The notes under the pieces are model-generated. The model had not been told where the DNA came from and ran no database searches. It saw nothing but the letters and a program-made list of their open reading frames with translations. Shown here in pieces: positions 43,990 through 44,759 of a stretch of DNA of 64,000 nt; position 1 is the first letter of the stretch; every line of letters starts with the position of its first letter. The DNA comes from Jannaschia maritima. GTDB taxonomy: Bacteria > Pseudomonadota > Alphaproteobacteria > Rhodobacterales > Rhodobacteraceae. The stretch covers positions 1 through 64,000 of the forward strand of contig NZ_JARGZA010000009.1 in the NCBI RefSeq assembly GCF_030973515.1, in the 5' to 3' direction. Both the position numbers and the translations under genes were made by a program.

Positions 43990-44006
43990 ATGCCGCATAG
44001 CGGCAT
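43990..44006 (+). promoter_or_regulatory. Palindromic operator upstream of the DUF1127/sRNA locus
   Basis: A perfect 7-3-7 palindrome, ATGCCGC-ATA-GCGGCAT, lies directly before the presumed -35 region of the DUF1127 gene. It is the same motif as the ppdK operator at 23770. Confidence 0.65.
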
Positions 44007-44012
44007 TGAAGT

Positions 44013-44039
44013 CTTGGAGATTGTGCGGGTGCAGCATTC
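44013..44039 (+). promoter_or_regulatory. Possible RpoH-type promoter of the DUF1127/sRNA operon
   Basis: CTTGGAG (44013-44019) and CAGCATTC (44032-44039), 12 bp apart, loosely resemble the CTTGAA ... CCCCAT heat-shock sigma pattern. The homologous R. sphaeroides locus is transcribed by RpoHI/RpoHII. The match here is weak. Confidence 0.35.
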
Positions 44040-44130
44040 GACCCATCTTCCAGTCAACGAAACGCGGCACCGACAATCCGGTCGGACGCAGAGCGGGGCG
44101 GAACGGGCCCCCAACACGGAAGGGTCAACC

Positions 44131-44340
44131 ATGGCTTACACCACCTACGGCAATCCGGTCGTCCGCAAGAACGGCCTCGCCCGCTACGTCGATGGCATCA
44201 AGACGTCCTATGCGCAGTGGCGCGTGTATCGCAAGACGCGGGACGAGTTGTCCGCGCTGAGCGAACGGGACCTGGCGGATCTGGGGGTCGCCCCCGGCGA
44301 CGTCGAGGCGATCGCCCGTCAAGCCGCCTACGGGCACTGA
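44131..44340 (+). CDS. ccaF1: DUF1127 protein (CcaF1-like), first gene of the CcsR-type sRNA operon
   Basis: 69 residues with a C-terminal DUF1127 motif (YRKTRDELSALSERDLADLG then VAPGDVEAIARQAAYG), an Arg-rich helix-turn-helix-like small domain. The ATG follows GGAAGGG. In R. sphaeroides the DUF1127 protein CcaF1 is an RNA-binding protein encoded directly upstream of and co-transcribed with the CcsR1-4 small RNAs, whose processing it affects. The same order is present here, with CCTCCC-loop hairpins starting about 20 nt after the stop codon. The gene symbol rests on this context plus the domain, since DUF1127 proteins are numerous. Confidence 0.8.
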   Translation: MAYTTYGNPVVRKNGLARYVDGIKTSYAQWRVYRKTRDELSALSERDLADLGVAPGDVEAIARQAAYGH

Positions 44341-44357
44341 CACGGAACACGCGGGAC

Positions 44358-44668
44358 CGCCCCCTTCCTCTCTCAGGGCGCGCGGGCCCGCGACCGCGGT
44401 ACGGTTCCATCCTCCCGGGACCGTGCCGTACCGATACCGGCTCCATTCCTCCCTCGGGGCCGGGAAACCGGACCTGCGACCCCGTCGCGTCCTCCCTGCG
44501 GCGTGCGTCGAGGGTCCGGACCAAACGAAGGCGGGCCCCGCCCGCCGGACCGAACGGGTCCCGCCCCGATCCTCCCTCGGGGCGGGACCCTGACGTCGCC
44601 ACCGCTTCCTCCCAAGCGGTGACGCGACCCGAAGCGGCGGTGCCCTCCTCCCGGGTGCCGCCGTTTTC
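44358..44668 (+). ncRNA. Tandem array of CcsR/cuckoo-type small RNA hairpins
   Basis: Seven consecutive stem-loops, six exposing CCTCCC in the loop. (1) 44358-44380, 5-bp stem, degenerate loop CCTTCCTCTCTCA. (2) 44398-44427, 11 bp with wobbles, loop ATCCTCCC. (3) 44437-44463, 8 bp, loop ATTCCTCCCTC. (4) 44468-44519, outer CCGGACC/GGTCCGG, inner 6 bp, loop GTCCTCCCT. (5) 44556-44590, 13 perfect bp, loop ATCCTCCCT. (6) 44595-44628, 8 bp plus an outer GTCGC/GCGAC, loop CCTCCC. (7) 44635-44663, 11 bp, loop TCCTCCC, then TTTT. CCUCC equals the anti-Shine-Dalgarno core of 16S rRNA, and stems differ in sequence while loops are conserved, a sign of selection on the loops. It follows a DUF1127 gene exactly as in the R. 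sphaeroides CcsR operon. Individual RNA ends cannot be fixed from sequence. Confidence 0.88.
44635..44668 (+). terminator. Terminator and last CCTCCTCCC hairpin of the sRNA operon
   Basis: CGGCGGTGCCC / GGGTGCCGCCG stem (11 bp with two G-T pairs), loop TCCTCCC, followed by TTTT. It serves both as a motif-bearing hairpin and as the intrinsic terminator; this element contains the full CCTCCTCCC string. Between here and the helicase stop at 44760 nothing else is recognised. Confidence 0.8.
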
Positions 44669-44759
44669 CGTTCGGTATCAGCGGAATGCAAGGCCCGGGT
44701 CGTCGACGCGATCGTGGCCGCAAGACGATCCGTGCTGATCCGGAGTCGAGATGCCGGGC

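Follow-up and report, generated by a model that had tools for sequence, protein, structure and literature searches.

A DUF1127 gene with a CCTCCC-loop hairpin array in Jannaschia maritima, and an EcfG-promoter-like element in the arrays of many sister species

The most interesting result of our analysis is an internal element of the EcfG-promoter type, which lies within a hairpin array in sister species of Jannaschia maritima and is absent from the J. maritima DNA analysed here (a stretch of 64,000 nucleotides, hereafter the window, which is part of contig C45 of a 3.67-Mb genome). The array follows a DUF1127 gene, and the locus combines conserved hairpin structure, conserved synteny, a promoter-like layout upstream and a sub-threshold match to the Rfam families ar14 and CcsR1. 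Judged by its sequence, it is an ordinary representative of the known ccaF1-CcsR / cuckoo (CIN1) type.

Results

The DUF1127 gene occupies positions 44131..44340 of the plus strand and encodes a CcaF1-like protein of 69 aa, which matches PF06568 with 47.5 bits (cut-off 23.3). It is preceded on the same strand by GGAAGGG (44118..44124), by its sequence the likely Shine-Dalgarno of the gene. Upstream of the gene lies a Mrp/NUBPL-type ATPase gene in divergent orientation, and downstream a UvrD helicase gene in convergent orientation. A relative of the DUF1127 gene was found in all 20 Jannaschia genomes, in each of them followed by an array and with UvrD within about 2 kb of the locus. At the second DUF1127 gene of the window's genome (L003) no array was found, and there is a single weak match.

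Between the stop codon and the array end, MFE folding gave eight hairpins of at least 5 bp, all on the plus strand. Six of them expose CCTCC in their loops, another is degenerate and one is free of the motif. The initial annotation had described a DUF1127 gene with six CCTCCC-loop hairpins and a degenerate one, and this description is borne out. The degenerate hairpin comes first (44350..44392, MFE fold, loop UCCUCUCUC) and is followed by CCTCCC-loop hairpins 1 (44396..44429, 13 bp) and 2 (44437..44463, 8 bp), both from the motif-hairpin scan, and by hairpin 3 with its long interrupted stem (44468..44519 with the outer stem, core 44483-44503). The motif-free hairpin GGCGGGC-CCC-GCCCGCC (44530..44546, MFE fold) is an addition to that annotation and occupies the spacer where 12 of the 19 sister species have GGAAC...GTT. 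Hairpins 4 (44556..44590, 14 bp) and 5 (44597..44624) then lead to hairpin 6 (44631..44667), which carries CCTCCTCCC and a T run. The scan and the covariation among orthologues mark it as the terminator, in agreement with the earlier assignment, and the full nine-base CCUCCUCCC is indeed found in this last hairpin only, the other five intact loops being (T)CCTCCC. The stems are nearly unrelated in sequence and well paired, much as had been stated, but the longest Watson-Crick stem measures 14 bp (44556-44590) and not 13; the last hairpin reaches 15 bp if G-U pairs are counted.

In 1000 dinucleotide shuffles of the 350-nt sequence, six motif hairpins never occurred (mean 0.31, maximum 3). The array folds with -208.5 kcal/mol (z = -8.4), and none of 100 shuffles was equally low. 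Along the window, the maximum per 320 nt is six motif hairpins on the plus strand, which is the array, and two on the minus strand; away from the array, no 320 nt of the window hold more than two. The 16S 3' end, present at 3 places in the genome, reads GGATCACCTCCTT, which supports the earlier idea of the loop as a mimic of the 16S anti-Shine-Dalgarno (aSD).

Within the arrays, the loops are the conserved part and the stems turn over. Motif-blind folding of the 20 Jannaschia arrays (the stretches of L004, L013 and L021 ended at 460 nt, not at a terminator) gave 183 MFE hairpins, of which 153 carry CCTCC in the loop or at most 2 nt from it and 148 strictly inside the loop. When stems of one array are compared, a fraction of 0.38 of their positions is identical, while letter shuffling gives 0.33 (842 pairs), and loops of at least 6 nt, which are C-rich, share a 6-mer in 0.95 of the pairs against 0.80 when letter-shuffled (593 pairs). 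Loops drifting as fast as stems, the outcome that the initial annotation had named as speaking against its view of the loops, were not seen in the 20 arrays. The terminal hairpin was aligned in 18 of the 20 genomes (all but L012 and L021); an alignment of hairpin 3 was too ragged for counting and was not used. Among the terminal-hairpin orthologues 98.0% of cells are paired and both-sided changes occur in 9 of the 14 pairs; the covariation score is 0.422 against 0.259 in shuffles, none of 500 being as high, and it drops to 0.19 or less once the pairing partners are slid. The count of further pair types gave a weaker signal (16 of 500 shuffles). Between species, the identity of the terminal hairpin, for hairpins chosen by motif, is 0.76 in the stem and 0.90 in the loop core; the value of 0.506 for the window's loop in that comparison reflects a one-column alignment shift.

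A larger copy number than in R. sphaeroides, which had also been supposed, found no support. Counted between the stop codon and the terminal hairpin, the CCTCC loop sites number 8 in 12 Jannaschia genomes and 7 in four others, while the remaining genomes have 9, 10, 11 and 6 sites, each number being seen once; the count of L021 ends at the hairpin at +489 because its terminal hairpin is without the motif. The six loops of the window are the lowest number among the 20 genomes (7-11 in the rest), and the R. sphaeroides array would have about eight stem-loops by arithmetic, since four homologous CcsRs are reported there, one of them described with two stem-loops (PMC3927594).

Outside the genus, 80 loci were compared, 70 from the best 80 of 471 and ten further ones; Jannaschia loci, one Seohaeicola duplicate and the second DUF1127 gene of the window's genome were excluded, and the sample favours close relatives because it was drawn from the best 80 of 471 loci. 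The gene is followed by at least two chained motif hairpins in 71 of these loci and by at least four in 61; one locus has a single motif hairpin and eight have none. On the opposite strand, used as control, at least two chained hairpins were seen upstream in 0/80 and downstream in 1/80. On the sense strand upstream, at least two unchained motif hairpins are present in 11/80, L024 with a further array being among them. By automatic counting, Vannielia and Kandeliimicrobium come out highest with 15 hairpins each (in Vannielia, 14 have all nine bases), but these numbers may overrun the terminator, as automatic counts can (e.g. L004, L013, L030); only the Jannaschia arrays were recounted to the terminal hairpin.

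At L024 (G026, contig C6), three DUF1127 genes lie close together, with nine motif hairpins upstream of the examined one, and are probably repeated gene-plus-array units. The array of L031 is made of near-identical two-hairpin units in repetition, which suggests that it grew by duplication of a CcsR-like pair. Such nearly identical copies, together with a hairpin number that differs between species, are what a low-function repeat element (REP-like hairpins) multiplied after the gene might leave. However, the array stems of Jannaschia are nearly unrelated, the terminal stem covaries, the loops are kept and no cluster comparable to the array was found elsewhere in the window's genome, so that an origin of this kind is hardly credible. 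Three chained CCTCCC at C3:61298-61378 (minus strand) of that genome were considered as another array and rejected for poor folding: only two lie in hairpin loops, one of these hairpins being weak (-6.2 kcal/mol).

At gathering thresholds, Rfam returned only a tRNA in the whole window, the array being without a match. Below these thresholds, the last three hairpins (44551..44669, plus strand) match ar14 (RF02344) in full length (1-123) with 38.1 bits (gathering 58.8, E 2.2e-5), and the last two (44584..44669, plus strand) match CcsR1 (RF02791) in full length (1-83) with 30.2 bits (gathering 65.3, E 2.8e-5), the E-values being those of an 861-base search. The check by covariance model that had been recommended thus gave complete fits, but scores below gathering. 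These two families are the top Rfam matches by E-value; third comes 6C, an unrelated family of hairpins, for which 36.1 bits correspond to E 0.006. The terminal block matches ar14 in full length in 17 of the 20 Jannaschia genomes, with at best 58.0 bits (in a sister species) against the 58.8 needed, and the array reached the gathering score of ar14 in none of the 20. Among ten loci scored, two from other genera (one from Martelella) were at or above gathering, either directly behind the gene or inside the array. The locus is thus built and placed like CcsR/cuckoo, yet judged by the Rfam scores it belongs to neither model.

Upstream of the DUF1127 gene, TGCYGCATRGCRGCA is present in 20/20 Jannaschia genomes. 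In the window, comparison points to the inverted repeat TGCCGCATAGCGGCA (43991..44005, without strand), which is PhaR-operator-like (CYGC-N3-GCRG; two changes from CTGC-N3-GCAG). The published PhaR site of R. sphaeroides is CTGCNNNGCAG (PMC12542648); relative to it, the repeat is exact in 5 of the 20 genomes and carries one change in a further 13, while the window and L014 each show two. All 20 genomes encode a PhaR-type protein (PF07879). A putative RpoH-like promoter, TTGTGC-N16-CCATCT (44021..44048, plus strand), was recognised by its conservation: TTGTGC is found upstream in all 20 genomes and is followed after exactly 16 bases by [CG]CA[TA]NT in 19. We infer its sigma factor, RpoH, from this layout, which resembles the -35 TTG / -12 TAT pattern given for RpoHI/HII at another R. 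sphaeroides DUF1127 gene (PMC10673084).

The spacer before the last hairpins contains GGAAC-N-YGTT in 12 of the 19 sister species, ten with N16/17 (L004, L006, L007, L009, L010, L013, L014, L015, L017, L019) and two with N18 (L011, L016). In L012 (+433), L021 (+550) and L030 (+373, GGTT) an N16/17 element lies further down, so that 13 of the 20 Jannaschia genomes have GGAAC-N16/17-NGTT either within the array or at its end. The form published for EcfG promoters is GGAAC-N16-CGTT, and the -10 box is flexible and can be TGTT (PMC7083833, PMC3892343). NepR is encoded in all 20 genomes, and in 19 of them nepR is preceded by GGAAC-N16 (15) or N17 (4)-NGTT. A weight matrix was built from these nepR sites, the own genome being left out each time, and the 3.2-kb locus was scanned with it. 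The best sense match fell in the array region in 13 of the 20 genomes at N16/17 and in two at N18, leaving five without a counted element: the window, L005, L018, L020 and L008, whose best match falls inside a motif hairpin and was not counted. Since the best antisense matches (average 10.85) reach up to 14.8, single scores of 14-15 are not decisive; the recurring position is. Counting both strands, each genome contains 60-137 copies of the YGTT pattern, which is not generally enriched, because the reversed-pattern control is comparable (16-164, higher in some genomes); by arithmetic, a chance match in a 60-base spacer on one strand is expected in less than one case in a thousand.

Twelve genomes have both the element (N18 in two) and a terminal ar14 match. 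In 11 of them, 7-9 nt separate the -10 box from the 5' end of the ar14 match, and in one 42 nt; this model start is bound to the position of the first stem, and, the species being related, these coincidences are not independent events. In the 80 non-Jannaschia loci, GGAAC-N15..18-YGTT was not found between 350 nt upstream of the match and the array end, except in L068, where it is inside a gene. The window lacks the element: at that spacer it reads GGACCAAACGAAGG, which has no -10 box and is possibly a decayed element. In a weakly supported UvrD tree the window, L005 and L020, all without the element, branch early, which is compatible with gain or loss. With 12 rows labelled (L012 not yet included), the element takes 6 changes on this tree, and 206 of 500 shuffles are as low.

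The internal element is an inverted repeat and folds in several species, and it was therefore also considered as a mere hairpin. This was disfavoured, since its spacing and its extended -10 (GTTCGG in many) recur at nepR promoters, and the reading as a candidate EcfG promoter is preferred. In L030, in the region some 350-500 nt past the DUF1127 stop, the eighth hairpin is followed by a T-run; beyond it come the EcfG-like element and another three hairpins, so that this ar14-type block looks like a gene of its own. A published link of these RNAs with EcfG was not seen among the matches listed, in the portions of text they gave; one of them concerned another DUF1127 gene.

Matches to ar14 away from the array were obtained in 15 of the 20 Jannaschia genomes. 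In the window's genome this is a stand-alone two-hairpin RNA with CCTCCTCCC (L175; C11:127376-127464, minus strand, 45.1 bits to ar14). At least two CCTCC sites are present at 14 of these 15 matches, and all six that were folded have two hairpins. Upstream of them, the PhaR-like CYGC-N3-GCRG was found in 12 of 15 cases, against a background of 5% of 115-base window pieces. At 11 of these the repeat is at one place (73-78 of 100 bases), with a TTGA(C) -35 on one side and a TTAAT-like -10 on the other; in the twelfth, L184, it was scored elsewhere, and by eye CTGC-N3-GCAG is at the usual place too. The repeat was not found in the upstream stretch of the other 3/15, among which L204 seems to be a false match and L205 has an offset.

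Discussion

We consider it highly probable that this is the ccaF1-CcsR operon in the form it takes in Jannaschia, and its stress-induced transcript would be processed to small RNAs directed at the translation starts of mRNAs. The initial annotation had seen here the equivalent of the R. sphaeroides locus, and the gene, the CCUCC-loop array, the terminator and ar14 and CcsR1 as best, though sub-gathering, Rfam matches sustain this. As to transcription, processing, stress control and target pairing, we infer them from work on R. sphaeroides and S. meliloti. By this analogy, a stress-responsive promoter would give a joint transcript from the DUF1127 gene through the terminal hairpin, and the array would be cleaved into small RNAs that each comprise two or three hairpins, RNase E being the probable nuclease and the DUF1127 protein probably influencing the process. 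The UCCUCCC loops of these RNAs may then pair with purine-rich ribosome-binding sites and lower the translation or stability of the mRNA. Co-transcription and RNase E/CcaF1 maturation have been reported for R. sphaeroides CcsR1-4. Speaking against our reading are the Rfam scores below gathering, the restriction of the full nine-base CCUCCUCCC to the last hairpin, the reported disturbance of CcsR maturation by raised CcaF1 in R. sphaeroides (PMC8307010), and the description of other DUF1127 proteins as acting via protein contacts (PMC12501420).

RNA binding and an action on the CcsR precursor are reported for CcaF1 as well, and one could imagine that the hairpins mainly stabilise the 3' end or serve as a decoy for the DUF1127 protein, with the loop as a protein-binding site instead of an antisense seed. 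We find this unlikely, given that the aSD loops of related RNAs are reported to repress by pairing: those of NfeR1 silence ntrB in this way (PMC10746234). The array loops might also act in cis, by pairing with the Shine-Dalgarno of their own DUF1127 gene and limiting its translation. In the window, the degenerate loop CCUUCC pairs with GGAAGGG at -10.6 kcal/mol and another loop at -11.6. Across the 20 genomes, however, own loops pair with the own Shine-Dalgarno just as loops of other species do (means of -10.45 vs -10.49 kcal/mol, p = 0.76; the start codon, hence the Shine-Dalgarno, is unsure in some rows, e.g. L009, L011, L016), and we regard such an autoregulation as very unlikely.

Within the ccaF1-CcsR-like operon that we favour, the promoter-like sequences raise the idea, to which we give an even chance, that the Jannaschia array is a two-promoter, three-input device, with an RpoH-like promoter, a PhaR-type operator and an embedded EcfG promoter, the window being without the latter. 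The RpoH-like promoter with its operator would drive the gene and the first hairpins, and the embedded promoter would start a separate three-hairpin ar14-type RNA 7-9 nt past its -10 box. The window's lineage would have kept the ar14-type block, its internal promoter having been lost or never gained. As the internal promoter varies among lineages, the same small RNA would come under different stress control.

Our results extend a known stress-RNA system to Jannaschia, where loops are held while stems turn over. In R. sphaeroides, the CcsR small RNAs are tied to RpoHI/HII; from the sequences described here, the EcfG general stress response and PhaR carbon-storage regulation may feed into CcsR/ar14 small RNAs as well. 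The presence or absence of the element across 20 Jannaschia species offers a ready-made comparison.

Among known systems, the ar14 model, that of S. meliloti NfeR1, is fitted whole and in order by the last three hairpins (38.1 bits), but unlike ar14/NfeR1 the block stays below gathering and is part of a longer 3' UTR array. CcsR1 is likewise fitted whole by the last two hairpins, at 30.2 bits against a gathering score of 65.3. The cuckoo family has been described as hairpins without stem conservation and with a conserved loop motif, beside a short DUF1127 gene (PMC4504443, PMC10253847), and the present locus has both a short DUF1127 gene, immediately before the array and in its orientation, and tandem hairpins with a conserved loop motif and divergent stems. 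For cuckoo / CIN1, 2-4 hairpins per RNA are given (Reinkensmeier and Giegerich 2015, as cited in these two papers); the six-loop array here may yield one RNA or several. The layout is also close to that of R. sphaeroides ccaF1-CcsR1-4: a DUF1127 gene (71 aa there, 69 here), tandem CCUCC-loop hairpins and a terminator, with six intact loops and a degenerate one here against about eight there (by arithmetic from descriptions, not from sequence), and with a stress promoter upstream in R. sphaeroides where Jannaschia has an RpoH-like layout.
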